Source: Paludibacter sp. | GTDB lineage: Bacteria; Bacteroidota; Bacteroidia; Bacteroidales; Paludibacteraceae | Direction: 5' to 3' | Length of the DNA stretch: 64,000 nucleotides | NCBI GenBank assembly: GCA_019163375.1 | Contig: JAFLKK010000004.1 | Coordinates: 310,001 to 374,000 of the forward strand | Shown here: piece by piece, positions 8,446 to 20,501 of the stretch | Position numbering within the stretch: position 1 is the first letter of the stretch | How the letters are laid out: the number at the start of each line of letters is the position of its first letter | Made by a program: the position numbers and the translations under genes | The notes under the pieces: generated by a model | What the model was told of the DNA's origin: nothing | Seen by the model: only the letters and a program-made list of their open reading frames with translations | Database searches by the model: none

Positions 8446-8520
8446 GGGCCTATAGCTCAGTTGGTTAGTAGCACCTGACTCATAATCAGGGGGTCACTGG
8501 TTCAAGCCCAGTTGGGCCCA
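8446..8520 (+). tRNA. tRNA with CAT anticodon (Met or lysidine-type Ile2)
   Basis: A 75-nt cloverleaf without encoded CCA. Acceptor GGGCCTA pairs with TGGGCCC (one wobble); anticodon stem CCTGA/TCAGG encloses loop CTCATAA; the T arm is CTGG TTCAAGC CCAG. The GGGCC acceptor and CTGGTTCAAGnCCAG arm resemble bacterial Ile2 tRNAs (CAT read as lysidine-AT) as much as elongator Met; sequence alone does not settle it. The D arm reads GCTCAGTTGGTTAGTAGC, one base longer than usual, and its fourth pair is broken. The 3' half from 8475 is the attachment core of the downstream element. Confidence 0.9.
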
Positions 8521-8521
8521 C
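8475..8521 (+). repeat. Left attachment site (47-bp core)
   Basis: Identical over 47 bases to 20455-20501, running from the anticodon stem to one base past the tRNA 3' end. The flanking bases differ on both sides. Integration here preserves the tRNA. Confidence 0.95.
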
Positions 8522-8534
8522 TCCTTGATAATCA

Positions 8535-8567
8535 AGCACTTACACCGTTGTGTGTAGGTGCTTTTTT
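8535..8567 (+). terminator. Terminator after the rebuilt tRNA
   Basis: AGCACTTACAC (8535-8545) pairs with GTGTAGGTGCT (8552-8562) apart from one mismatch, and a run of six T ends the structure. It belongs to the element and replaces the native tRNA terminator, now at 20514-20549. Confidence 0.85.
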
Positions 8568-8848
8568 GTTGCTTGCGAAATCGAGGTGAAATCACAATCC
8601 TTAAATTGCGACTTTTCAAAACTTTCTCTTTCAGATGAATTAATTTGCGTTTTTGCTTTGTCGGTGGGTGAAAATATCAAAACTACGGACTTCAACGCGC
8701 CAGTCTTGCCTTATCTCCTTCAATTCACTTTTACTGCTCTCTAAGGACGTTTGAACTGTTGCGGTGAAAATGTACAACTAAGCCAATAAAAAGCCTCACG
8801 CGTCTTGCAAACCGCTGAATCCTGCTAGATACGGGCGAAGCAAGTCAT

Positions 8849-8878
8849 GTCCTGTCCTATAAAATCAAGTCCTGTCCT
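8849..8878 (+). repeat. Two 10-mers spaced 20 bp apart
   Basis: GTCCTGTCCT occurs at 8849-8858 and again at 8869-8878, and a related CATGTCAC follows at 8887. Spacing of two helical turns suggests a protein-binding array close to the attachment core. Confidence 0.6.
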
Positions 8879-9429
8879 GTCATATCATGTCACACAACAA
8901 CCGCACTATAAAAAGAAATGCCTATCCAACTAATGTAAGATAGGCAAGACTTAGTCAAACTATTGAATTAAGTATTATTGCGGCAATATATAATCTTTAT
9001 TTGTAAGACGGTACACCCCCCTATGTAATGCCGGCGTTACACACCCGCACTGGGTACTCATGGAATTTTTCTTATTTCAAATTTTTTATATTTTTTTTGA
9101 AACTTCCGTATAGCCTAAATTCCCATATTTGTAAACTTCTAATTCTAATTAATAAAATTAAATTATATCCCATTTTACACCAAAATAAATTAAATGGGTT
9201 AATAATTATTTTTCGGATAATTCAATTTATTAACCTAACTTGTAACTATCTAATATATACTTATATACTTCATTAACTGGGTTAATAACTATGAATATAT
9301 AGTATTTTACAAAAGGATTCGCATAGTGGGCATAGTTACCCAGATTTAGGGTAACTACCGAAATTGAGCTTAGCCTATTGGAAAAAGGGGTCGTTTTTTC
9401 TGTTAAATAAGTATATGGTATTGATAATT

Positions 9430-9476
9430 AATATGTTATATTTTTGTTAGCGTCGGTTAACATACTATAACATATT
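9430..9476. repeat. 11-bp inverted repeat
   Basis: AATATGTTATA (9430-9440) and TATAACATATT (9466-9476) are perfect inverse copies with a 25-base centre that itself contains GTTA/TAAC. It lies 150 bases downstream of the DUF4468 gene and has no T tract. Confidence 0.6.
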
Positions 9477-9622
9477 GAGCGGTTAGCCACACTGTCTTGC
9501 CTATTTTTAGATAAATTGGAAAAAGTTTGATAGCGGTCATTTTTTTCTCAAATTTGACATTGACCTAGTTGGCGGCTTAGAAACACTTAGAACCTCACCC
9601 GAATCCTATGAATTAATCAAAG

Positions 9623-10327
9623 TTAAAAATCATCTGATTTGCACATTGAAGTTTTTAGCGATGTGATAAGATTTTCCATTGTTTCAACTTCTGATATGTA
9701 GAAATCCTTTCTGTCTGGACTTTTAATTCCTTTTATTCTTGAATTGACAGTTTCAAGGTTTGTATTATGTGCTTTTAACTCTTTTCTTTTTAAACTTACC
9801 GTGTTTATGCTTTCAAGAGAATCTTTAGTGTGAATTAAACTAGGTAACAGCTTCTCATCTTCTAAATACATTTTCAATCTGTAATTTGCATCATTCCCCC
9901 GAACAACATCGCTTGTCACTTCTCCTAAAAAAGACATTGTACATTCAGTGTCAATCGTAATGTCATCGACAGTATACCTGTACTTATTGTCTTTACATTC
10001 AATTGTGAATGTGTAATTTATTGTTTCTGAATTTCCAACAGAAATATCTCCTTTCCCAAGTGGAACAGTATAAGGCACTTTACTTTTAGCTTTAAAAATC
10101 AATTTGCCATTTACAGCATCTTCAAATTGTATAACACTTTTATAATCTCCAAAAGATTTAGCTATCCATTTCTGAGCGTTTGAATATAAAACAGTTTTAT
10201 TTAAGTTGCACAGAACCACTTCTTCATACTTTACTTGATTGTTTTCATCTACAGGGAACTTTTTGCTTTGAGCATCGACTCTTATAAATGTAGCTAATAC
10301 GATTAATAGAAATAATGTTTTTTTCAT
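9623..10327 (-). CDS. Secreted DUF4468 (TBP-like fold) protein
   Basis: 234 residues with a signal peptide cut near residue 19 (MKKTLFLLIVLATFIRVDA). Residues about 30-120 fit DUF4468: a KYEEVVLCNLNKTVLYSNAQKWI opening, a SVIQFEDAVNGKLIFKAK strand pair and a YTFTIECKDNKYRYTVDDI strand pair. The C-terminal part is helical. Function is unknown. It is the last of four minus-strand genes, three with N-terminal export or anchor signals, at the left end of the element, probably cargo in the cell envelope. Confidence 0.75.
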   Translation of the reverse strand: MKKTLFLLIVLATFIRVDAQSKKFPVDENNQVKYEEVVLCNLNKTVLYSNAQKWIAKSFGDYKSVIQFEDAVNGKLIFKAKSKVPYTVPLGKGDISVGNSETINYTFTIECKDNKYRYTVDDITIDTECTMSFLGEVTSDVVRGNDANYRLKMYLEDEKLLPSLIHTKDSLESINTVSLKRKELKAHNTNLETVNSRIKGIKSPDRKDFYISEVETMENLITSLKTSMCKSDDF

Positions 10328-10357
10328 AATGATTTGTTTAATAATTAGTATTCGGTA

Positions 10358-10705
10358 TTATTTCCTACAATCAATCATTACTGTGCCAGCTTGGCAGATA
10401 AATACGTCATTGACTCGAACATCATTTTTATAATGCTCTTCTAAATCTTTCCTTAATTTTTCATATTCATCATTCGTTACAACCTTTTGAATTTTGACAT
10501 TAACTAATCTTCCAATTGGAGTTATTGTATAAATCCCATCGCTTGTTGTTTTAGTATGTTCTGCACCTCCAAGAATACCATAACTTTCATAAGTAGATAC
10601 TAAGGATTCTACAAGCACATCAGTTTCTTTGAAAAGTTCTTTTTTGCTTGGTGAACATCCAATAGTAAAAATAAAAATCGCAAAATAGATAAGTGTCTTT
10701 TTCAT
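10358..10705 (-). CDS. Small lipoprotein, element cargo
   Basis: 115 residues with a lipobox ending at Cys17 (FTIGC). The mature part has a long helix, then short strands and a C-terminal VFICQAGTVMIDCRK with two cysteines that could form a disulfide. No family recognised. 30 bases separate it from both neighbours, so it sits in one operon with them. Confidence 0.7.
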   Translation of the reverse strand: MKKTLIYFAIFIFTIGCSPSKKELFKETDVLVESLVSTYESYGILGGAEHTKTTSDGIYTITPIGRLVNVKIQKVVTNDEYEKLRKDLEEHYKNDVRVNDVFICQAGTVMIDCRK

Positions 10706-10734
10706 TGCATTGTAATTTAAGATTAGAGATATGT

Positions 10735-11079
10735 TTATTTGTGTATTAAATTATCGTATGAAGGAAAATCTTCACCTAATCTAGTGAATTTTTTAATGTA
10801 CTTCTCTTTCAATTTAGGATAATGCAAATCAAACACTTCTTTTGTTGGTCTGCCTTTTAAATAGTGCATTAATGGGTCATTCCAAACATCTCTTAATAAT
10901 TTGATTTTTGCTTCGACTTTATAACCATTCGCAATTAAAAAATCAATACTATCATTTTCTTTCCATGACTTTTCTTTCAAGTCTTTAATGTCGCTTGCTA
11001 TTTGAAAAAACTTAACAATCATTGCAATTGAAATTATAAAATAAACAATCGCAATACAAAATATTAGTTCTTGACTCAT
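10735..11079 (-). CDS. Small membrane-anchored protein, element cargo
   Basis: 114 residues. One N-terminal transmembrane helix (about residues 5-27) is followed by a charged helical region, presumably cytoplasmic. A stretch of K/E-rich residues and LHYPKLKEKYIKKF suggests a helical bundle. Not recognised. It lies between two lipoprotein genes with 30-100 base gaps. Confidence 0.65.
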   Translation of the reverse strand: MSQELIFCIAIVYFIISIAMIVKFFQIASDIKDLKEKSWKENDSIDFLIANGYKVEAKIKLLRDVWNDPLMHYLKGRPTKEVFDLHYPKLKEKYIKKFTRLGEDFPSYDNLIHK

Positions 11080-11181
11080 CGTGTTTAAAATTAAGTTATT
11101 ATTTGTGGCTTATAATTATATGATTGTAATTTAGATTGCCGAAAATTGGATCATTGTGTATTATGTTTTTCGGAGCCTTGT

Positions 11182-11655
11182 CTATTTTTCTCTATAATAT
11201 CCAGTAACATATTTTGATTGCGAGCCTTTCAAAGAGAAATTGTCCGAGCTTACGATAAGGAGACTGTAGTAATTGTAAAGCTTTTTATCAGAAGTACCAC
11301 CTTTAAGATATATGAATAATTCACTTGCATCTTGCGAAACATAGAAATAGCAATTTACTCCAGGCTCATTTGTTTTCCCAAAGCCTTTGTAAACACATTC
11401 ACCATGTGCAGTTAATGCAACAACCTTTCCATTCAAATAATCATCTTCGTAAATATCTAAGGGTGATGTATAAACTTTTAAAAATTCGATGGATGAATTA
11501 TAGTCAAATTCTACTTTACTACTAAATTTTCCAGTCATCATTGCAAGAGCCTTTTTTTGAGGTTCAGAGTATGGACTGATATAATTATCGTCTTTAGAAC
11601 AGCTCGAAAGTGTTAACATTAAAATCGCAAATAGCATTACTTTTTTCATTTTCAT
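11182..11655 (-). CDS. Lipoprotein, element cargo
   Basis: 157 residues with a lipobox ending at Cys19 (LTLSSC) followed by SKDD, typical of Bacteroidota surface or periplasmic lipoproteins. The rest is mostly beta strands (FSSKVEFDYNS, VVALTAHGECVYKGFG, NCYFYVSQDASELFIYL), suggesting a small lipocalin-like or Spi-like barrel. Not recognised. Its 5' leader of about 270 bases holds the large nested inverted repeat at 11747-11860. Confidence 0.72.
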   Translation of the reverse strand: MKMKKVMLFAILMLTLSSCSKDDNYISPYSEPQKKALAMMTGKFSSKVEFDYNSSIEFLKVYTSPLDIYEDDYLNGKVVALTAHGECVYKGFGKTNEPGVNCYFYVSQDASELFIYLKGGTSDKKLYNYYSLLIVSSDNFSLKGSQSKYVTGYYREK

Positions 11656-11746
11656 TTATTTTTAGGGGTTTATAATTTTACCGTAATGTAATGCTATTAC
11701 AGTAACAACCCACCTAAAAACAAAATGCGTGGGTCATCACATAATC

Positions 11747-11860
11747 AGTGTAAGTGGTACGGCCAGTACCAAACAACCCTAATAAGTTATGCCCACGCAA
11801 AACGTGAGCGTTAAACTTATCATTCGAGGGTTGTATAAAAATTGGCCGTTTCCTTACACT
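11747..11860. other. 114-nt nested inverted repeat (structured RNA or recombination site)
   Basis: Five paired blocks nest in order: AGTGTAAG/CTTACACT (11747-11754, 11853-11860), ACGGCCA/TGGCCGT (11759-11765, 11843-11849), ACAACCCT/AGGGTTGT (11773-11780, 11827-11834), ATAAGTT/AACTTAT (11782-11788, 11814-11820) and CACG/CGTG (11794-11797, 11803-11806). That is 34 perfect pairs with small asymmetric internal loops. No T tract follows, so it is not a simple terminator. If the -7 element at 11921-11928 is used, it lies in the leader of the lipoprotein mRNA. Confidence 0.8.
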
Positions 11861-11920
11861 CAAACAATAGCAAAACGCTATATAATATTTTGAAAATCAA
11901 TAATTCGCATTATTGAATTG

Positions 11921-11928
11921 CAAAGATA
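11921..11928 (-). promoter_or_regulatory. Possible promoter of the cargo operon
   Basis: TATCTTTG on the minus strand matches the Bacteroidota -7 consensus. No -33 TTG is seen at the right distance. The first downstream gene starts 266 bases away, after the nested hairpin. Confidence 0.4.
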
Positions 11929-12020
11929 TAATTTTATTTTTAATAGATGGTCTATTTACTAAAAAATGTTTCTATATTTACGCCCGATAGAATAATTTAC
12001 TAACTTTAAAAATTGATATT

Positions 12021-12239
12021 ATGAGTAACAAAATTATTAGAGTAAAAATTGTTGATATTGAAGACCACATTAAAAGTGGAGTGAAAGTTGTAGAAGATGA
12101 AATTAATAAAGAAATCCAAGAACTAGAAAGGCTTAAGGATGTAATTTCAATTAGTTTGATTTTAGGACTTTCTGAAGAAAAAACAGAATATGCAGTGAGT
12201 GTCACAAAAGCGGCTATGATTACGTATGAAGTGAAATAG
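12021..12239 (+). CDS. Small helical protein on the opposite strand
   Basis: 72 residues, charged and mostly helical (EDEINKEIQELERLKDVISIS), with no signal or membrane helix. It is the only plus-strand candidate within the element. The composition looks like a real protein, while the antiparallel frame (11978-12268) is a serine/leucine-rich shadow. It sits between the cargo operon and the large minus-strand operon. Not recognised; it could be a small regulator. Confidence 0.5.
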   Translation: MSNKIIRVKIVDIEDHIKSGVKVVEDEINKEIQELERLKDVISISLILGLSEEKTEYAVSVTKAAMITYEVK

Positions 12240-12321
12240 AGTCCTAGCCCAAAACACAACAAATCCACCTACATCTTCACAGACTGGGGGGATTTTTGAT
12301 TAAATTAACACACTATATTTC

Positions 12322-12513
12322 TTATTCAAATTCCTTTAACTTCTCGGTATTCACTTCTAGCAATCCGTTTTCACCAGTTTTTAAGTATCTCTCGATTACC
12401 AACCCTGTATTTATTCTTATAGCTACTTCATTTAAGAAGTCGTACATTGCAAGCTGATTTTCAGTATAATCATTCAAACCAGTCTTGCCTTTTATCTCTT
12501 TATTATTTCCCAT
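12322..12513 (-). CDS. Small hypothetical protein
   Basis: 63 residues, soluble and helical (NQLAMYDFLNEVAIRINTGLVIERYL). Not recognised. It is the last gene of the coupled minus-strand operon, six bases after the 32-residue frame. Confidence 0.6.
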   Translation of the reverse strand: MGNNKEIKGKTGLNDYTENQLAMYDFLNEVAIRINTGLVIERYLKTGENGLLEVNTEKLKEFE

Positions 12514-12518
12514 TGTAT

Positions 12519-12617
12519 TTATTGTTTGACTTTTATATAAATTCTTTTTTCTTGAACTCTAATATTTTGAGGTAGTGGGTTTGTAGTCCCCACTTCTATT
12601 TTTATTCTATCTCTCAT
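12519..12617 (-). CDS. 32-residue protein coupled to the Fn3 protein gene
   Basis: MRDRIKIEVGTTNPLPQNI opens a 32-residue frame whose ATG shares a base with the TAA stop of the preceding gene (TAATG, 12619-12615). Such overlap means termination-reinitiation coupling and is the main support for this frame. It is basic at its C-terminus. Function unknown. Confidence 0.55.
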   Translation of the reverse strand: MRDRIKIEVGTTNPLPQNIRVQEKRIYIKVKQ

Positions 12618-13921
12618 TATGCAATGATTTTAACGGAAGTAATTGTAATTGCCCCAGCCGCATAATAACTGCCAATCTTAATAACCGCTGTCATTGCTGA
12701 TGGAATAACAAGGTCGATATATGTCCCCGTAATTCCGTAAGCATCTAAATAAAACGTTGGGTCGCTAGTTTCTCCATTCCAAACAATTATTTCCGCACCG
12801 GCTAAATCGGTTTCTCCTCCAGTTCCAGTAGCTCTGATATGATATGTTCCCGCTTCTGTAAATACTACGTTTACACTTGCGCTTTCATATCCAGTTTCAA
12901 TAACCTCTGGGGCTGTAGTTTCGTAAATAATCGTTTCTGACGCTATTGTTTCAAAGCTAATTACATTACCATAAGAAGTGCCGATTGCGTTTGTTGCATA
13001 GGCTCGGACATAATATGTAGTAAGTGCAGAACCCGTAGAAAATACAGAGTTAAATGCTCCAACTGTACTTTGTGCGCCTAAGCCAATTTCTGTTGCATTG
13101 GCAAGAGTGGGGGTAGTGTCTGTTGCGCTGTAAACGAAACCATGAGCAGTGATAGCCGATAAGCCGTTACTTGTTGTAGCCCCGTTAAAAGTAGCCCCTA
13201 CTGCTGTAATAGTTGTTACTGCATCTGTGGTCAATGTTGGAGATGTTGGCTCTGGTGATGGGGTAAGCGTTGTAAACGATACTGGGCTAGATACAGACGT
13301 TCCATTTAGGTTTGTAGAGAATGCGCGAACATAATATGTGACAGCCCCAACCAACCCACTTAATGAAGCCGTATAAGCCCCCTCGAATGGTTTAGCCCCT
13401 AAATTGATAATGTGATCTGACGCATCGGGCGTGGTATGCGTAGCACTCCAGTAAAATCCGTGCTGTGTTACTGCTGTATTACCGCAACTTGTAACGTTAC
13501 CACCAAGCAAAGCAGATGTTTCAGTAACTGAACTAGCAACAGAAGCCGTTACTACTGAAGCCGTAAATTCTTCATTTGTAGGGGGCGTGAAGTTGGTAAC
13601 ATAATCAGCATTAAACCAGAGTAATGTCTGAAAATTTGTATGTTCGATGGATATAATATCTCCCTCAATTTTACCATCGTATATTGTTGCAAATATTTTA
13701 TCCGTCACAAGTCTTATTTGTGCATTTGGAGATACCTTATCCATTCTAAGAGAGTATTTAGAAACAAGTACGCCACTGTTCATAAATGATTTATTAAGCT
13801 CTATTCGGCAGTTTGTATCAACTGTGCGCGCTGTTCTCCACACAGGGGAATCAGAAGAACCGTAATTAGTCATTTTCTCAATATATATCTTATCCGGGTA
13901 TCTTGGATTATTAATTTTCAT
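12617..13921 (-). CDS. Fn3-repeat structural-type protein
   Basis: 434 residues, no signal peptide. Residues 1-110 (YPDKIYIEKM, IYDGKIEGDIISIEH) vaguely recall phage head-closure or neck adaptors. Then come two Fn3-like repeats of about 90 residues, each with the HGF(Y/V)(W/Y)SAT and YYVRA(F/Y)(S/A)TN signatures (about 125-225 and 230-325). The C-terminal 100 residues form a beta-rich region (FTEAGTYHIRATGTGGE) like a small jelly roll. Fn3 repeats of this kind often decorate phage particles and help in host attachment. The virion role is an inference. Confidence 0.65.
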   Translation of the reverse strand: MKINNPRYPDKIYIEKMTNYGSSDSPVWRTARTVDTNCRIELNKSFMNSGVLVSKYSLRMDKVSPNAQIRLVTDKIFATIYDGKIEGDIISIEHTNFQTLLWFNADYVTNFTPPTNEEFTASVVTASVASSVTETSALLGGNVTSCGNTAVTQHGFYWSATHTTPDASDHIINLGAKPFEGAYTASLSGLVGAVTYYVRAFSTNLNGTSVSSPVSFTTLTPSPEPTSPTLTTDAVTTITAVGATFNGATTSNGLSAITAHGFVYSATDTTPTLANATEIGLGAQSTVGAFNSVFSTGSALTTYYVRAYATNAIGTSYGNVISFETIASETIIYETTAPEVIETGYESASVNVVFTEAGTYHIRATGTGGETDLAGAEIIVWNGETSDPTFYLDAYGITGTYIDLVIPSAMTAVIKIGSYYAAGAITITSVKIIA

Positions 13922-13935
13922 AGTTATTAATTTAA

Positions 13936-13965
13936 TCCAGTCTTGCCCTGATTGACAAGACTGGA
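13936..13965. repeat. Hairpin built from the element's GTCTTG word
   Basis: TCCAGTCTTG (13936-13945) and CAAGACTGGA (13956-13965) are perfect 10-bp inverse copies with a 10-base loop, between the 194-residue gene and the Fn3 gene. No T tract follows on the minus strand, so it may be an operator or attenuator rather than a terminator. Confidence 0.7.
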
Positions 13966-13974
13966 ATGTTTATA

Positions 13975-14559
13975 TTATTTGTTAACGAAATCACAAACGA
14001 ATTTATCTGTATCTGCGCTGTAAACGCCATTAAGGCTTTTGGTAATATAGGCTTCTCTGATTGGGTCAAGAGGTCTGCCAACGTTAAGGAAATTAGTATA
14101 TGCCTTAATGTATTCTAACATTACCTCCACGTCATCTGAGATTTCCATTCTACATGATTTCTCAATAAATGCGTCCAGTTCGTCCTTATCATACGCGAAT
14201 GTACGTTTAGTGCCCTCAATATGTTTTAGGCTTACCACGTCATTGAAACGAGCCGTGAATGAGTGTATGGTTGAGTAATTACACATATTGTATATTCTAT
14301 TAAACGGTTTTCGCTCGTCATCAATTTTTGAGTCTGGAACGTAAGTATCTCCGTAAACTGCATTCATATAGCCGTTAAATTTATTGTCGAAAACGAAACG
14401 TTTAAATCCGTTTTGGTCTTTCAGAATGTCTTCCATTTCCTCCTTAGTTGGGGTCATACGATTTTCAGTTAAATACTTTTCCATTGACGATATTTCTTTT
14501 TCGCAACGTGCTGCTTCTGCTCTTAGTGATTTTTCTTTGTAAGAATTGTAATATTTCAT
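13975..14559 (-). CDS. Hypothetical helical protein
   Basis: 194 residues, soluble. A coiled-coil-like N-terminus (LRAEAARCEKEISSMEKYL) is followed by a mixed region with FNRIYNMCNYSTIHSFTARF and a DDVEVMLEYIKAYTNFL helix. Not recognised. It is in the coupled operon between the small paralogous proteins and the Fn3 protein. Intergenic hairpins or GTCTTGCC words flank it on both sides. Confidence 0.65.
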   Translation of the reverse strand: MKYYNSYKEKSLRAEAARCEKEISSMEKYLTENRMTPTKEEMEDILKDQNGFKRFVFDNKFNGYMNAVYGDTYVPDSKIDDERKPFNRIYNMCNYSTIHSFTARFNDVVSLKHIEGTKRTFAYDKDELDAFIEKSCRMEISDDVEVMLEYIKAYTNFLNVGRPLDPIREAYITKSLNGVYSADTDKFVCDFVNK

Positions 14560-14638
14560 CTTGTGTTAATTTTGTAGTCCACCCATCTGTGGATTGCTTT
14601 TTAAAGAGGGGCAAGACTGGGGTTGCTATTTTGTTAAT

Positions 14639-14818
14639 TTATTTGCCTAGTTTTGCATTAATCTCTGCAAGCATCTGCTCTACTGATTTCTTAGGAGCTT
14701 TATCAATTCCTAGTTCGGCTGCGTAGTTATTTACCGATTTTTGAATACTGGCTCGTCTACGGGCTACTTCTTTTTCTGGAACTTCTACAAGTTCGCCTTT
14801 TATCATTTCTGTGACCAT
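14639..14818 (-). CDS. 59-residue protein, paralogue A
   Basis: MVTEMIKGELVEVPEKE opens a 59-residue frame on the minus strand, ending KKSVEQMLAEINAKLGK. The tail LAEINAKLG matches the tail LAELSAKLG of the upstream neighbour, and both have an acidic E-x-x-A-R-R/Q-x-A segment before it. The two are tandem duplicates. Helical, soluble, function unknown. Confidence 0.65.
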   Translation of the reverse strand: MVTEMIKGELVEVPEKEVARRRASIQKSVNNYAAELGIDKAPKKSVEQMLAEINAKLGK

Positions 14819-14837
14819 CTTTTTATCTTTTTATTTG

Positions 14838-15029
14838 TTAGTTACCTAATTTTGCACTAAGTTCCGCAAGCAGAGTGTGGGTTGATTTTGTGATTACTGG
14901 AACGGTTTTAAGCCTTTCATTTGTTTTCTCAATAGCTTTATCTACCATTTTTGCAGCCTTAGCTTGTCTTGCTGCGATTTCTTCTTTTGTGAGTTCAGTC
15001 CACTCACCATTGTCATTTAAACCAATCAT
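14838..15029 (-). CDS. 63-residue protein, paralogue B
   Basis: 63 residues: an ELTKEEIAARQAKAAKMVDKA helix start and the tail TLLAELSAKLGN, shared with paralogue A, 19 bases downstream. Strongly helical and charged. It could be a scaffold or tail-assembly-like small protein, but nothing proves this. Confidence 0.65.
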   Translation of the reverse strand: MIGLNDNGEWTELTKEEIAARQAKAAKMVDKAIEKTNERLKTVPVITKSTHTLLAELSAKLGN

Positions 15030-15177
15030 TTTTTCTATTTTTATTTATTGTTACTAATTTAGTGCTGCGGTTCTTCTCATTTAGTTCTGCTCTATTGTAA
15101 GAGATATATAAGTGAACCACACCCACCTTTTTAAATTCTACCACAAGTAAATTGGTTTATTTAACCATGTTTTTACT

Positions 15178-15357
15178 TTACAAATCAATTTGCTCACGTT
15201 TTGAGCGTTTTTTCTTCCTTTTAGCATCTGATTTCTTTTTATTAATGCGTTTCTTTTTTTGAATTTCCTTTTCTCCTATCGATTCCGTGTCGGCAATGTA
15301 GTTTATCACTACCACTTTTGTAATCCCAAATCTTGTCTTTCTAGTTTCGATACTCAT
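15178..15357 (-). CDS. 59-residue basic protein
   Basis: MSIETRKTRFGITKVVVINY begins a 59-residue frame whose second half is almost all Lys, Arg and Ser, giving a nucleic-acid-binding character. It starts seven bases after the 29-residue frame, in the same operon. No family recognised. Confidence 0.55.
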   Translation of the reverse strand: MSIETRKTRFGITKVVVINYIADTESIGEKEIQKKKRINKKKSDAKRKKKRSKREQIDL

Positions 15358-15364
15358 AAGTTCT

Positions 15365-15454
15365 TTATCTTAATACATGTGCAAGTCTGTCTAAACTGTT
15401 TTGAATGCTCGCGTACTTAGCGTAAATGTCTTGGACTAATTCTTGTTGGCTCAT
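15365..15454 (-). CDS. 29-residue protein coupled to the TerS-like gene
   Basis: MSQQELVQDIYAKYASIQNS begins a 29-residue helical frame. Its ATG overlaps the TGA stop of the preceding gene (ATGA, 15454-15451), which is the main support for translation. Confidence 0.5.
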   Translation of the reverse strand: MSQQELVQDIYAKYASIQNSLDRLAHVLR

Positions 15455-15912
15455 TGTGCTAGAGCCTCCTTTCTCTTCTTTTCTGCTGCGTATAAGTGAC
15501 AATCTTCAATACATCTAGCGGGAGTGTAGAACTTAACGTCGTCTACTTCCTTGCTCTCCACCTCTTTTTTCATATTCTTAATATTGGCGATTTTCTCGTA
15601 AGCTGCCAGTTTTACTTTGTCATCTTTGGATCGTGAAGCTATCCTTGTGAATTTCCTAATCAGTGCCGCTTTGTCAAGTTCATCATCGCCGCTGTCGAAC
15701 TCCTCTAAGTTCTCTACTGCTTCATCTTCATCATCCTCGAACCATTCTGCCAGTGCGGTCTTTTTCTTTGAAGAGAGGGTTAATAAACTTGCATCATTGG
15801 CTTTACTATCGAATAGTAATCTGAATGCATCTGCTGCTCTAAATTTTCCCGATTTGACTAAGACTACAAATGCTTGGTCTTCCTTCGAGATTTCATTTTT
15901 CTTTTTGCTCAT
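15451..15912 (-). CDS. Acidic helical protein, weakly like a small terminase subunit
   Basis: 153 residues. Residues 10-40 (QAFVVLVKSGKFRAADAFRLLF) recall the HTH start of phage small terminases, where a segment of the type F-x-x-x-L-x-x-G-x-x-x-x-A-A-x-R opens the protein. A very acidic centre (EWFEDDEDEAVENLEEF) precedes KFTRIASRSKDDKVKLAAYEKIANI, like the oligomerisation helices of that family. A satellite-encoded small terminase would redirect packaging of a helper phage. The resemblance is by eye only and could be chance. Overlaps both neighbouring genes. Confidence 0.6.
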   Translation of the reverse strand: MSKKKNEISKEDQAFVVLVKSGKFRAADAFRLLFDSKANDASLLTLSSKKKTALAEWFEDDEDEAVENLEEFDSGDDELDKAALIRKFTRIASRSKDDKVKLAAYEKIANIKNMKKEVESKEVDDVKFYTPARCIEDCHLYAAEKKRKEALAQ

Positions 15913-16120
15913 AATCTGCTTTTAAATAGATTCGTACATTATCTTTAAATTCTCCATCATAGGGTGTGCGTTCCCAAAATACAGGTGTCTTGCCCATTTC
16001 TTTTCTTCCAAAATATCGTAACAATTTCAATTCTTGTGCTTCTGTTAATCCTTTGAAAAAGTAGAGATAATCACCGCTTAATCCAAAATTATCGTGTCCG
16101 TTACCTACTTCAAATTTCAT
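15893..16120 (-). CDS. 75-residue hypothetical protein
   Basis: Mixed alpha/beta, with GLSGDYLYFFKGLTEAQELKLL and VFWERTPYDGEFKDNVRIYL. Its ATG shares a base with the TAA of the upstream gene (TAATG at 16122-16118), and its 3' end overlaps the next gene by 20 bases, so translation is coupled on both sides. Not recognised. Confidence 0.6.
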   Translation of the reverse strand: MKFEVGNGHDNFGLSGDYLYFFKGLTEAQELKLLRYFGRKEMGKTPVFWERTPYDGEFKDNVRIYLKADYEQKEK

Positions 16121-16662
16121 TATGCCGCTATTTTAGATTTGGTTACTCTCTTTTTCCTTAACTCTGGGTGTGCGTGAGGTTTTGAAGCTTTTCTGTCAAC
16201 GTGGCTTTCTGCTACTCTATCATTTGAACTAAAGTCAGCGCGAGGGGCGTATTTACTACACTTTGCGGCAAAATTGATGATTTCTTGTCCACAGTAGAAG
16301 CCTTGTGGTGTAATGCTAATGTCTCCCGATACTGTTAGTTCTGCAATCTCTTGTGCGTTCCAACCAGTAAGCCATCTGACGTCTCCGATACTATCTAAAG
16401 GGTAGACAGATAAAAGTCCGAATTTGGCTGTCCTAAGAGCTGTATTAAGGTCAGTACCTTTAAGTAATAATGCACCAGTGATATTCATAATTGCATCATC
16501 GTCATTTACTCCTGCTGCAAATGCTGCTTTAGCCATTTTGTTAGCTAATACTGCGTCTGATACTTCAAAGGGAATGGCAAGACCTACTGGCATGTTTTCA
16601 AGGATTGCTTGTACTAATAATGCGTCTTTTTCTGATTGAGTTAAATTTACTAAGTTTGTCAT
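16120..16662 (-). CDS. Hypothetical protein, first gene of the coupled operon
   Basis: 180 residues. The first 125 are small-residue-rich helices (DDDAIMNITGALLLKGTDLNTALRTA) and the last 40 are basic (HPELRKKRVTKSKIAA), which suggests binding to nucleic acid or to an acidic partner. No family recognised. It lies just after the iteron cluster and heads the 16662-12322 operon. Confidence 0.65.
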   Translation of the reverse strand: MTNLVNLTQSEKDALLVQAILENMPVGLAIPFEVSDAVLANKMAKAAFAAGVNDDDAIMNITGALLLKGTDLNTALRTAKFGLLSVYPLDSIGDVRWLTGWNAQEIAELTVSGDISITPQGFYCGQEIINFAAKCSKYAPRADFSSNDRVAESHVDRKASKPHAHPELRKKRVTKSKIAA

Positions 16663-16783
16663 TGTTGTAGGTGTTAGGTGTTAATTTATTAGTGATTGAT
16701 TGTGTTATTTGTAATTTTTAAGGAAAAAATGTAATAATGAACGGTCGCTCATCGACTCTGTGATTTTGCGTTAATTTGATAAC

Positions 16784-17033
16784 ATTGTTCCATTGTTCCA
16801 AAACTGTTCCACGTTGAAAAGCTCGTAGACTGGCTCTGGTAAAGGATTTGCAGCGTTGTTCCAAAATTCCACTTTTTTTCAACAAGTTTGTAACACGCAC
16901 CCAGTATATACCTTATTATTTCTTTAAAAAAAATGGAACAAATGGAATATAGGGCTAAAAGCGGCTACAGTAAAGGATTTTGGTGTTCCAAAACCACGCT
17001 TGATTTTTGGAATATTTTTGGAATTTACGGAAC
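16784..17033. other. Iteron cluster, candidate replication origin
   Basis: TGTTCCA occurs at 16786, 16794, 16805, 16857 and 16984, with an inverse TGGAACA at 16934; looser TTCCA/TGGAA copies lie at 16867, 16943, 17008 and 17019, and a CGGAAC at 17028. The first two repeats are in tandem with an 8-base period. Between the clusters is a run from 16895 to 16935 that is mostly A and T. The array sits directly at the 3' end of the helicase gene, as in phage-satellite origins. Confidence 0.65.
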
Positions 17034-18161
17034 GTCGTTTTTTTCGTCTAAAAAGAAATTAAATGGTCGGCTCTGTTTTTCTACTCCGTGATAATTTATG
17101 TATCTGCGTTTTACTGGTTTTGGCAATTTTAATTCCTCAACTAAAACATTAGTAATTTCCGAGATTGAATACTTTCGGTTAAAAATCTCAACAAAATCAC
17201 TTGCGGTTGCTCCCATTGTCTTAACTTCGTCGTCTTCCATTTTATTTTGAACATAAATTAGAATATCTTTAGCTAATTTTGATTTTGAATGTTCAATGCA
17301 ATTTTCTAACGCGTCTGTTTTTAGTTGCTCTTGACTAAACCATTGTCTGCTTTGTGATACTGGAACCGACATTGTGCGCCGTTTTATCCAATATAAGAAA
17401 GCCGGAATTTCTTTTTCAATATCACTAAGGAAATTAGGGTTAAACTCTTTTAACTTGGGTACTTTAATTATCCAAAACCTAATATCAGACTTTTCAATGT
17501 GTGCGAAATCCTTTTCTCTATTGCTGCAAAGGGTAAATTTTCCAAAGAAAGGCATCAATTTATGTTCAGAGTGCATTTTTCTTAATAAAATAGTCTTTGC
17601 AGTACTATCTTGCTTTATACGCTGCTTAATAAAGTTCTCGTCAATTGAACTTTCATCTATTCCGATAACCAATTTCGAAGCGTACACCGCGTTGAATGGT
17701 TGTATGTACTCTGACATTTTAGAGATTACTGCATTTGATCCAAACAACACCTTGTCAAAATCAAGTAAGCTAGTCTTACCTGTCCCCTGAAGCTCTGAAA
17801 CCAATACCAGTATAGGCTGTATCTGTGTTGGCTGCTGTAGAAGCAATTGGTAGCGGTCGTAGCCTATATCAACTTGGTGTTGGAATATGTGCTTAAACAT
17901 CTTTTCAATTGTCGGGAAATTGCCGTTGCATTCCTTGTGTTGTAATGGGTTCGAGAGATTGTAGAAGTTATTTACTCGTAATCTATAGTTTTCAAAGTCA
18001 TGCTCCACTGTGAAGCCGTAGTACTGTTCTATAGATTTGATATTTACTCCATCATCTTTAATCTCACGTTTATCCCTTTTAATTAACTCTCCGTTTACCA
18101 TTTGGTAATAAACGTCCCCGATACGAGCAAAAGTTGTAATGTCTGTTGATAAGTGTGACAT
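17025..18161 (-). CDS. SF3-like replicative helicase (DUF5906 type)
   Basis: 378 residues. Walker A GTGKTS is at 126-131 (VSELQGTGKTSLLDF), Walker B ending IDE is at 168-170, a sensor asparagine (LCSNREKDF) is near 214 and an arginine-finger candidate (DIRFW) near 228. This set fits the SF3/P4-type helicases annotated as primase-helicases. An archaeo-eukaryotic primase domain is absent: the N-terminal 100 residues are short and without its DxD motif. It probably opens the adjacent iteron origin. Confidence 0.85.
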   Translation of the reverse strand: MSHLSTDITTFARIGDVYYQMVNGELIKRDKREIKDDGVNIKSIEQYYGFTVEHDFENYRLRVNNFYNLSNPLQHKECNGNFPTIEKMFKHIFQHQVDIGYDRYQLLLQQPTQIQPILVLVSELQGTGKTSLLDFDKVLFGSNAVISKMSEYIQPFNAVYASKLVIGIDESSIDENFIKQRIKQDSTAKTILLRKMHSEHKLMPFFGKFTLCSNREKDFAHIEKSDIRFWIIKVPKLKEFNPNFLSDIEKEIPAFLYWIKRRTMSVPVSQSRQWFSQEQLKTDALENCIEHSKSKLAKDILIYVQNKMEDDEVKTMGATASDFVEIFNRKYSISEITNVLVEELKLPKPVKRRYINYHGVEKQSRPFNFFLDEKNDVP

Positions 18162-18198
18162 AGGTTAAATATTTGTGTGTTAAATAAACGTTAACTTG

Positions 18199-18255
18199 TA
18201 GGAATATCCAATAAAAGTATTATCTTTGTATCGTGGTAAAAATATGCTATTCCTA
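18199..18255. promoter_or_regulatory. Inverted repeat between the HTH and helicase genes
   Basis: TAGGAATA (18199-18206) and TATTCCTA (18248-18255) are perfect inverse copies 41 bases apart, around a TATCTTTG -7-like word on the plus strand (18221-18228). No plus-strand gene follows, so an operator or antisense promoter is possible. Confidence 0.4.
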
Positions 18256-18271
18256 TAAATGTAAATAAAAG

Positions 18272-18565
18272 TTAATTCTTTAAGGCTTCTTCTATTTCTG
18301 AGTCGTACCCGAATAGCTTGCAGCCAGTGTAATAAACAGGGATGCGTTTTTCATTTATCATTCTTTGAGCCGTTCCAGTTGATATGTGGAGATATTTTGC
18401 AATCCCTCTTACTCCCTCGACTCTCTTCTTTTCAACTCTTTGCTCTGTCTCCGGTGGTTTGATAAGAGCTAATTTTTCTGCTACTTTCTCTGAAATTAAC
18501 TCGACCAAATAATTTAGTATTGAGTCGAAATTGGCATTTTGTGGTACTGGCGCTGTCTGTGTCAT
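18272..18565 (-). CDS. Helix-turn-helix protein (excisionase/DUF3853 type)
   Basis: 97 residues. The C-terminal half has GIAKYLHISTGTAQRMINEKRIPVYYTG, a winged HTH_17-like fold in which a helix-turn-helix is followed by a short wing and DSEIEEAL. The N-terminal half is a helical region. Such proteins act as excisionases or early regulators in Bacteroidota elements. It lies 26 bases after the 67-residue HTH gene. Confidence 0.72.
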   Translation of the reverse strand: MTQTAPVPQNANFDSILNYLVELISEKVAEKLALIKPPETEQRVEKKRVEGVRGIAKYLHISTGTAQRMINEKRIPVYYTGCKLFGYDSEIEEALKN

Positions 18566-18591
18566 GGTTTTGAGTTTTTTTTGTGTCGTAA

Positions 18592-18795
18592 TTAGCCCTG
18601 TCTTGCCACAATTCCCAATCTTTCTCTAACTAGTGCGACATCGAATACGATGGTCTTTCCTGACTGCATGTAAGTTCCCTCTAGCTTGTCTTTTTTGATG
18701 GTGTGTGCGGTAGGGTGGCTGCACTTTAGTAATTCTGCCAAGCCTTGCAATCCGTAGACGTACTTTGTTTGGTCTTTTTCTGTTTGTTCTTTCAT
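18592..18795 (-). CDS. Small DUF3853-like HTH protein
   Basis: 67 residues. GLAELLKCSHPTAHTIKKDKLEG is a helix-turn-helix, followed by the wing TYMQSGKTIVFDVALVRERL. It is a family often found next to integrase in Bacteroidota elements, and may direct excision or repress the element. It is the first gene after a good promoter (18824-18854). Confidence 0.72.
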   Translation of the reverse strand: MKEQTEKDQTKYVYGLQGLAELLKCSHPTAHTIKKDKLEGTYMQSGKTIVFDVALVRERLGIVARQG

Positions 18796-18823
18796 AAATT
18801 ATACATCTTTTATGTTTCTTTTA

Positions 18824-18854
18824 CAAAGGTACGAAAAAAAATCGACTCTCGCAA
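18824..18854 (-). promoter_or_regulatory. Promoter and repeats upstream of the HTH/helicase genes
   Basis: On the minus strand TTG (18854-18852) and TACCTTTG (18831-18824), 20 bases apart, form a good Bacteroidota promoter. Just upstream the word CGTAAAAAA repeats near 18866 and 18883, with related CGAAAAAAA at 18832, which may be operator sites. Confidence 0.65.
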
Positions 18855-18915
18855 GTTTTTTCGTAAAAAACCGTAATAAATCGTAAAAAATAGCCAAAAC
18901 TGTGCTAGTGTATCA

Positions 18916-18944
18916 TAAAAAATGCCAAACTCATAAAGTTTGGC
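18916..18944 (-). terminator. Terminator of the integrase gene
   Basis: GCCAAACT (18924-18931) and AGTTTGGC (18937-18944) form an 8-bp stem. On the minus strand a run of T (complement of 18917-18922) follows, 35 bases after the integrase stop. Confidence 0.8.
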
Positions 18945-18978
18945 ACGATTTTATTGAAAAGATTTTTGTCTTCTTGCA

Positions 18979-20292
18979 CTACTCCAATAACATCTTATTA
19001 AACGTCATTCGTTTTTCTGGTGGAAATAAGGAAATGTATCCGCCAGTAACGTTTTTTACTGTATGTCCCATTGCCTGAGAAATATATTTTTCAGAAACTC
19101 CCGCATGGGTTAGATTCGTGGCGTATGAATGTCGGGCGTATGTCATAGTTATGTTAACGGGTAGTTTTAGTAATTTGCAAACAACCTCTAGCCTGTCTGC
19201 AATATTAGAATTTTTCTGTGAGATTATCTTTTTGATTTTGGTTTCGTTAGTCTCGCCATCTAAAATGGACGGAAAGATTAAAGCTCCTTCTTTTGGTTTC
19301 GTTCCATACTTATTTAAAATCTTTTTCAGTTCGGGGATAAGTGGTATTACAACCTCAATGTCTTCATCGGTGGTGGCCGCTGTCTTCTTTCGGATAAATT
19401 GCAGTTCGGTTTCTTTACTTTGAAAATAATGCTTGTTGTATCTTAGTAAAGCCATATCGGCAAGGTTTAATCCATTGCCAAGGTAGCTAAACATCCAATA
19501 GTTGATTGCTTCAAATTTGGCATCTTTTGTTTGTGTGTTCCATTTGCTTGGTGCTTTGAAGTTCATTATTTGTTTGATAGTTGCAATGTTGATAAAGTCA
19601 TTGCTTCTACTTCTTCCTTTCTGGATTGTTATTTTGTTCTCTTTTTTCATTCCGAATGGATATTGAGATTGTTTTAAATATCCCTTTCTTATACATTCGT
19701 TTATTGCTACCCTACAAGCTCTCATGTACATTCCAGAAGTGGTGTTGCTTACGTTCATTTTCTCTCCCCACTTTTCAATCAGTTCTACACCTATACGATT
19801 AAATGAAATATTGCTCCCGATGTATTTTGTAAATGAATTGTAGGCATCGTTATAAGAGTTGGCAGTTCCGATTCTCTTTTCTGATCGTCTACTTTCGATA
19901 ATATTAAGCCATACATCGCTAAAATTAGTTTCGCTTCGTCCTGTCAAAACAGCTTTTAGATTCTCCATTGTAAAGTCATCCTTATTTAATAGAATGGTTG
20001 CTGCATCTTTTACTTTATTGAATACAATAATTTGCTGCTCCTTGTCATTGTATAGAGAGCCTAGTTTTTGAATGCCCCGCCCTGTTGCTTTGACTAAGTC
20101 TTGCCATTGGCTTAGAGTGCATTTGTATCCAGTGCGATGATAGTAGGTTGTGCGGTTGCAATTGACGCGAACAGCAACAGGCAATAACTCTTCTTTGCGT
20201 CTGGTGTCGAGGGTTAACGATAGGTAAACATTTTCAAGCTTTACCGATTCAATTGAGATGATTTTTTCTGCTGTTGCTTTACTGTCTTTCAT
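18979..20292 (-). CDS. Tyrosine recombinase (integrase) of the element
   Basis: 437 residues in the Bacteroidota layout: an arm-binding domain (RRKEELLPVAVRVNCN, YHRTGYKC), a SAM-like core-binding domain (about 130-220) and a C-terminal catalytic domain. The ARHSYATNLTHAG box, AMGHTVKNVTGGYISLFP and the tyrosine nucleophile in GGYIS are clear. The first catalytic Arg position reads YLGNGLNLADMALLRYNK, as in related recombinases that lack a standard Arg there. It sits 160 bases from the right attachment site and most likely recombines the 47-bp core. Confidence 0.92.
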   Translation of the reverse strand: MKDSKATAEKIISIESVKLENVYLSLTLDTRRKEELLPVAVRVNCNRTTYYHRTGYKCTLSQWQDLVKATGRGIQKLGSLYNDKEQQIIVFNKVKDAATILLNKDDFTMENLKAVLTGRSETNFSDVWLNIIESRRSEKRIGTANSYNDAYNSFTKYIGSNISFNRIGVELIEKWGEKMNVSNTTSGMYMRACRVAINECIRKGYLKQSQYPFGMKKENKITIQKGRSRSNDFINIATIKQIMNFKAPSKWNTQTKDAKFEAINYWMFSYLGNGLNLADMALLRYNKHYFQSKETELQFIRKKTAATTDEDIEVVIPLIPELKKILNKYGTKPKEGALIFPSILDGETNETKIKKIISQKNSNIADRLEVVCKLLKLPVNITMTYARHSYATNLTHAGVSEKYISQAMGHTVKNVTGGYISLFPPEKRMTFNKMLLE

Positions 20293-20454
20293 GGTGCTTA
20301 TTATTATGTTGCGAAATCACTGCGAAATCACGATTTTAGAACAGCACAAAACTACATAAAACAATTTATATGTGCAAGTAATTGAAAATAAAACTTTTGA
20401 ATAAATTATTGATACCAAATAAAACTTAAAAAATACCAGATAAAACAGTTCTGT

Positions 20455-20501
20455 CTGACTCATAATCAGGGGGTCACTGGTTCAAGCCCAGTTGGGCCCA
20501 C
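20455..20501 (+). repeat. Right attachment site (47-bp core)
   Basis: The original 3' end of the tRNA, identical to 8475-8521. It lacks the 5' half of the tRNA, so it is not a gene. The base before it (T) and after it (C) differ from the left copy. Confidence 0.95.

Follow-up and report, generated by a model that had tools for sequence, protein, structure and literature searches.

We describe an island of 12,027 bp (8475..20501) in a 64,000-nucleotide stretch of the genome of Paludibacter sp. (contig JAFLKK010000004.1, positions 310,001 to 374,000; the whole stretch is called the window below). Our analysis suggests, with a probability of about two in three, that the island is a phage satellite which works like the phage-inducible chromosomal islands (PICIs) of Gram-negative bacteria, depends on a helper phage of the LoVEphage type and brings its own small-terminase-like protein. 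A satellite had already been proposed in a preliminary description made from the letters of the window. The proposal has gained a phage family for the 153-aa protein, a second island with a gene of this family and a PICI-like order of helicase and iterons; it has lost the structural role of the 434-aa protein and the helicase as a mark of satellites.

In the mechanism we propose, the integrase would insert the island into a tRNA-Met gene and, together with a helix-turn-helix (HTH) protein, excise it, excision being triggered by the helper phage. The layout suggests that the DUF5906 helicase would replicate the island from iterons just 3' of its gene. The 153-aa protein would then act as the island's small terminase (TerS): judging from homology and synteny, it would mark the island DNA and dock it on the large terminase (TerL) of a LoVEphage-like temperate phage, and island DNA would fill the helper capsids. 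If this is true, a named helper group, a candidate packaging gene and exact attachment (att) junctions are at hand, which would make satellite biology in Bacteroidota directly testable, and a transfer route is offered for islands without relaxases.

The island and its empty site

The island is bounded by two perfect 47-bp repeats in a tRNA-Met(CAT) gene, as the preliminary description had it; the identity covers exactly 47 bp with no mismatch and ends on both sides. The intact tRNA stands at the low-coordinate end and the integrase adjoins the opposite end. The island has 35.0% G+C and the remainder of the window 36.5%. A 17-bp perfect inverted repeat was also seen near the island ends (8943-8959 and 20089-20105), one copy lying within the integrase gene; the copies are possible integrase arm sites.

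The same place was sought in the genus by means of the HAD-family gene to the left of the tRNA, which gave a match in 41 of 48 genomes, our own included. Thirty of the listed places were fetched, with a reach of at most ~1.3 kb past the tRNA, so that islands farther in would escape. The identical 76-bp tRNA is present in 17 of the 30, counting our own, and one locus of the same genus, L102, is a clear empty site: there the tRNA is directly joined to the sequence that follows the island on its right side here (48 nt at 90%). L105 (83%) and L118 (79%) show similarity to the part of this flank that lies farther out. At E 1e-3, no island protein was matched within this reach in any fetched locus except our own.

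All clear island genes lie on the minus strand and are read in one direction, the doubtful exception being a 72-aa plus-strand open reading frame (ORF; 12021-12239). Counted from the 20.5-kb end, the order is integrase, 67-aa and 97-aa proteins, helicase, iterons, 180-, 75- and 153-aa proteins, four very small ORFs, 194-aa and 434-aa proteins and cargo, with a DUF4468 protein as the last gene (Table 1). Family scans of the island with Pfam (16 ORFs) and PHROGs (20 ORFs) recognised no capsid, portal, TerL or relaxase family, in agreement with what had been noted earlier. The single virion-type row in PHROGs, a 63-aa ORF against a tape-measure family at E 0.075, was taken as chance.

A phage packaging-region protein in two islands

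The 153-aa protein, previously described as weakly small-terminase-like, is assigned to no family by Pfam or PHROGs. Among 393 genomes of the order it finds itself, a 154-aa relative in G133 (E 8e-9; L066:15050-15514) and a doubtful match in G057 (E 0.0025), which was treated as chance and is gone with the family profile. The G133 relative in turn finds six LoVEphage-like records (4e-6 to 2e-5), and a LoVEphage-type protein finds Dulem virus 40 (1e-13) at the same place as the E 0.04 match of the 153-aa protein itself. In the record of Dulem virus 40 (PP511379; L027:11677-12246) the gene calls at this place are on the opposite strand to the family gene, and the annotation there is probably wrong.

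Two scans of viral contigs yielded 18 distinct contigs with the family. The query alignment of the first scan, from which most profile members come, included the 153-aa protein, and that of the second did not. A profile built from phage and viral-contig members only, with the 153-aa protein left out, finds this protein at 7.2e-15 as the sole match among the 201 ORFs of at least 50 aa in the window. By its sequence, then, the 153-aa protein is clearly phage-related.

The family belongs to the packaging region of its phages. One TerL family is present in the fetched stretch of 13 of the 18 viral contigs, within 10 kb of the family gene; three more have only a portal or MuF-type gene and two have neither. 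In L077 the family gene is directly upstream of TerL (phrog_979 2.3e-49, PF03237 1.9e-9) and shares one base with the TerL start. The gene comes after TerL-portal-MuF in five of the 13 contigs, and in seven it lies 5.6-8.1 kb from TerL on the other strand. A TerL ORF of 916 aa in L079 (3634-6384) has an apparent intein at the Walker A motif, as judged by eye.

Family searches gave no TerS family match for the 153-aa family, and a PDB sequence search returned only one peptide at chance level (E 0.88). As the model of the 153-aa protein itself was too weak, a phage member was modelled for the structure search (pLDDT 75.6). This model predicts N-terminal helices, a long helix and a hairpin. Small terminases take three of its top five VIA-align rows and the phage protein 2ao9 a fourth, which is suggestive only, and Foldseek gave no match below E 0.8. 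The earlier likeness thus stands as membership in a phage packaging-region family, with no TerS family behind it, and the 153-aa protein is likely, but not proven, to be a small terminase.

On the same data, the island might instead be a satellite whose 153-aa protein has some other packaging-region role (as a scaffold, a regulator or an interference factor) and whose packaging proceeds by the TerS of the helper or by generalized transduction. The gene positions after MuF or far from TerL on the other strand, the negative TerS family searches and the weak fold scores would fit such a protein. The order of gene and TerL with their overlap in L077 does not, nor do the predicted arrangement of helices and hairpin and the TerS chains among the top VIA-align rows, and we hold this explanation to be unlikely.

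With the family profile, only two matches were found in the 393 genomes of the order: the present island and L066. The latter (L066:4501-17000; G133:C1) is a 12.4-kb island between perfect 58-bp repeats in a tRNA-Leu(TAA) gene, where the 153-aa family gene is 33 bp from a tyrosine integrase. Related islands in other tRNA genes, which the preliminary description had suggested looking for, are thereby represented by one island that shares the 153-aa family and an integrase and has other contents: a type III restriction-modification set, an AAA/DUF4276 pair, a T5orf172 protein, which we take to be of the GIY-YIG type, HTH and Fic proteins and one unknown. No TerL was found among its 10 scanned proteins, and it is a possible defence-carrying satellite.

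In the tree, the L066 gene groups with the phage genes of L080 and L094 (100/99), apart from the 153-aa gene, and it has 50% identity to the L080 gene over 176 columns; the 153-aa gene is on a long branch and its own placement is unsure. The grouping of the L066 gene with L080 and not with the 153-aa gene suggests that the two islands recruited their genes separately from one phage group. It may be, at slightly less than even odds in our estimate, that both islands represent an undescribed kind of satellite in Bacteroidota, in which an integrase is combined with a small-terminase gene that was taken from LoVEphage-like phages on two or more separate occasions. This would be a phylum-specific system, convergent with PICIs, that redirects the packaging of prevalent gut temperate phages and carries lipoprotein or restriction cargo.

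The TerL of the LoVEphage-linked family was not found in the host genome, so a helper would have to arrive from elsewhere. Among 217 genomes of the class the family profile matched our own genome only; as the profile searches gave no prophage copy, they may have a low sensitivity for phage forms. Genome and viral-contig searches with single island proteins revealed no sister copy of the complete island, and viral-contig scans with five single island proteins confirmed nothing.

Replication genes and the route of transfer

The region between the helicase and the 180-aa gene contains TTTTGGAACA three times and AAATCCTTTAC twice. Its 362 nt hold 15 repeated 9-mers. The maximum in 1000 dinucleotide shuffles is 8, and none of 1273 segments of the same size from the 64 kb reaches 15. 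The iteron cluster announced for the 3' end of the helicase is therefore real and significantly exceeds chance, and it presumably is the replication origin. Two main iteron sets flank 86 nt with 70% A+T, one 40-nt stretch of which reaches 82%; the A+T contrast is slight, the whole region having 66% and another 80% stretch lying downstream. According to the available text of PMC6092414, the origin of Gram-negative PICIs is immediately 3' of the replication gene and has two iteron sets around an AT-rich region. The succession of helicase and iterons in the island matches this position of the origin, as the preliminary comparison with PICIs had implied.

Two parts of the preliminary reading do not hold. 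The first concerns the DUF5906 helicase, which we, like the preliminary description, label SF3-like. The genome has three further DUF5906 helicases, and two of these are accompanied by a CHC2 primase and by a relaxase that we presume to be of the Mob_Pre type; the third is 9.5 kb from a relaxase-linked copy and shows no relaxase of this kind beside it in the stretch viewed. One of the elements concerned (G000:C5:116843-127242; L005) holds both helicases of this 9.5-kb pair, only one having primase and relaxase at its side. The other (G000:C10:156000-169892; L006) holds one copy near a tRNA-Asp, also with primase and relaxase. These elements resemble the island in the helicase family and, by eye, in repeated words that follow the helicase directly on its 3' side, as well as in the tRNA near the C10 copy, but the island has neither primase nor relaxase. 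Since two of the three other copies adjoin a relaxase gene, the helicase family alone is no mark of a satellite, contrary to its earlier use as a sign of one.

The second part concerns the 434-aa protein, which had been labelled an Fn3 structural-type protein. Pfam gives no fn3 match, and the label came from the earlier description only. In its middle (~residues 120-330) the protein is similar to repeat proteins that are common in the family. The phage-collection matches of the whole protein are confined to the repeat part (a 735-kb phage, with two records, and MT838140), its N-terminal 115 residues have no match in phages, and in 198 genomes these residues find only themselves and one doubtful match (E 0.003). 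We therefore rejected these matches as evidence for a phage structural protein; no phage homologue of it was found, and the structural label is unsupported. The record MT838140 (L028), labelled Bacteriophage sp., encodes bacterial-type proteins, namely a repeat lipoprotein and a glycosidase-like one, and is probably a bacterial fragment.

One would argue from the helicase that the island is a mobilizable integrative element, which lost its relaxase or never had one, conjugates by means of an oriT alone and carries the phage-type gene as incidental cargo. Besides the two relaxase-linked copies of our own genome, the same Mob_Pre-type relaxase seed, the only one used as a probe, matches three of 18 helicase loci in other genomes of the order (18 read of 33 listed places), and an oriT in the island would escape recognition here. 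However, no relaxase family is recognised among the scanned ORFs, and a packaging-type gene stands also beside the integrase of the otherwise different island L066. Conjugative transfer of this kind appears rather improbable to us, somewhat more so than a packaging protein other than TerS. The available text of a review (PMC11389934) states that terminase genes suggest phage mobilization and relaxase genes conjugative mobilization; by this rule the island falls on the phage side.

Relatives of the helicase occur at E 1e-8 in 28 of 295 genomes of the order, our own included. Alignment scans found three viral and two genome loci at 31-38%, the viral ones being L058 (beside TerL), L059 and L060; a PDB sequence search gave no match. 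These viral relatives, taken with the packaging-region homologue and the integrase, would be in line with a decayed prophage remnant that has kept integrase, replication and one packaging-region gene. Such a remnant is the least probable of the explanations considered, and we give it very little weight: the listed genes are open and run in one direction, the att sites are intact, tblastn with the helicase at 1e-5 finds nothing in 50,697 phage records, among them LoVEphage, and the same pairing of gene and integrase recurs in L066.

Relation to known satellites and further genes

To our knowledge, the well-studied phage satellites are from Proteobacteria, Firmicutes and Actinobacteria. Among the papers listed in literature searches, as judged by titles and the first parts of abstracts, none is on a phage satellite of Bacteroidota, which is no proof of absence in print.

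As far as the available text of PMC6092414 goes, the island resembles Gram-negative PICIs of the EcCICFT073 type in that it has flanking att sites, a terminal integrase with a small regulator close by, genes read in one direction, accessory genes, and iterons that adjoin the replication gene on its 3' side. A figure legend there marks terS among the encapsidation genes, a gene present in some PICIs. The island differs in its DUF5906 helicase, in a regulator that is only HTH_17/DUF3853-like, in a helper that would be LoVEphage-like and in being known from sequence alone; no word beginning with "Bacteroid" occurs in the main text of that paper. The phage-inducible chromosomal minimalist islands (PICMIs), as presented in the accessible portion of PMC10803314, are likewise small and without capsid-remodelling genes, and some have defence cargo, as L066 does. 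They differ in belonging to Vibrionaceae, in their virulent helpers and in cargo placed between prim and fis; the word "terminase" does not occur in that text.

The proposed helpers are represented by the LoVEphage-like temperate phages MW660583, PQ571265 and PQ571302. They share a homologue of the 153-aa protein with the island, but are tailed phages of ~71-72 kb with TerL, portal, head and tail genes. PMC8525569 (available part) calls LoVEphage itself highly prevalent and probably temperate and reports a prophage-like copy in a genome of Bacteroides dorei. For PQ571265 and PQ571302, the source stated in the records is antibiotic induction.

Table 1. Features of the island and its attachment site
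Feature	Position	Strand	Size	Evidence or remark
Intact tRNA-Met(CAT), integration site	8446..8521	+		ARAGORN; last 47 bp (8475-8521) are one attachment repeat
Cargo	9623..12513	-	63, 157, 115, 114 and 234 aa	157 and 115 aa with lipoprotein-type signals (by eye); 114 aa membrane-type; 234 aa DUF4468
Repeat protein	12617..13921	-	434 aa	
194-aa protein	13975..14559	-	194 aa	weak PADLOC LmuB match (E 0.0018, 15 bits)
Four very small ORFs	14639..15454	-	29, 59, 63, 59 aa	
Small-terminase-like protein, LoVEphage packaging-region family	15451..15912	-	153 aa	family profile
75-aa protein	15893..16120	-	75 aa	no Pfam or PHROGs family
180-aa protein	16120..16662	-	180 aa	no Pfam or PHROGs family
Iteron cluster, presumed replication origin	16663..17024	-		directly 3' of helicase
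Primase-helicase-type protein DUF5906	17025..18161	-	378 aa	PF19263 3.2e-10; phrog_24712 6.2e-8; DNA primase phrog_1156 1.1e-5
Small HTH protein, HTH_17/DUF3853-like	18272..18565	-	97 aa	PF12728 3.5e-4, under its cut-off
Small HTH-type protein DUF3853	18592..18795	-	67 aa	PF12964 6.4e-11
Tyrosine integrase	18979..20292	-	437 aa	PF13102 2e-13; phrog_1 5.7e-20
Second attachment repeat (tRNA 3' part)	20455..20501	+	47 bp	perfect; repeat comparison

Of the small HTH proteins described earlier, the 67-aa one matches DUF3853, and the HTH_17 match of the 97-aa one stays under the cut-off of its family; the latter may have an AlpA/excisionase-type role. In a small tblastn set, the 67-aa protein is similar to the C-terminal end of the LoVEphage-type primase gene (3e-7 in L074; 3e-5 in L069-L071 and L073).

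The 180-aa protein was found in our own genome only (1 of 295), and so was the 194-aa protein (1 of 48 in the genus). PADLOC gave nothing for nine of the 10 island ORFs, the exception being the 194-aa protein. Among the very small ORFs, that of 63 aa and the last of 59 aa have similar ends by eye, and the two of 59 aa have no match in PHROGs. The DUF4468 protein (DUF4468 2.5e-14) also matches phrog_4002 (3e-23), so this cargo type occurs on phages too.

Two further DUF5906 integrase elements, L040 and L046, encode a 207-aa protein (L040:4980-5603, L046:5643-6266) similar to the gene directly upstream of TerL in the viral contig L058 (1883-2551; phmmer 1.3e-5 and 5.3e-5, BLASTP of the L040 protein 2e-8); the L040 protein has weak matches in the phage collection (8e-4). 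We regard this as a second, different pairing with a packaging gene, and the two elements as leads: they were not accepted as satellite members, as no tRNA or convincing att repeat was found. By one seed, they have no relaxase. A 194-aa protein of L034 that looked alike by eye is not similar (E 0.15). Finally, a 6.2-kb element of Labilibaculum (L061:9345-15562) lies beside a tRNA-Cys with 24-bp repeats and carries an HTH protein, a DUF5906 helicase, a BT4734-type primase, a DUF5681 protein and an integrase.

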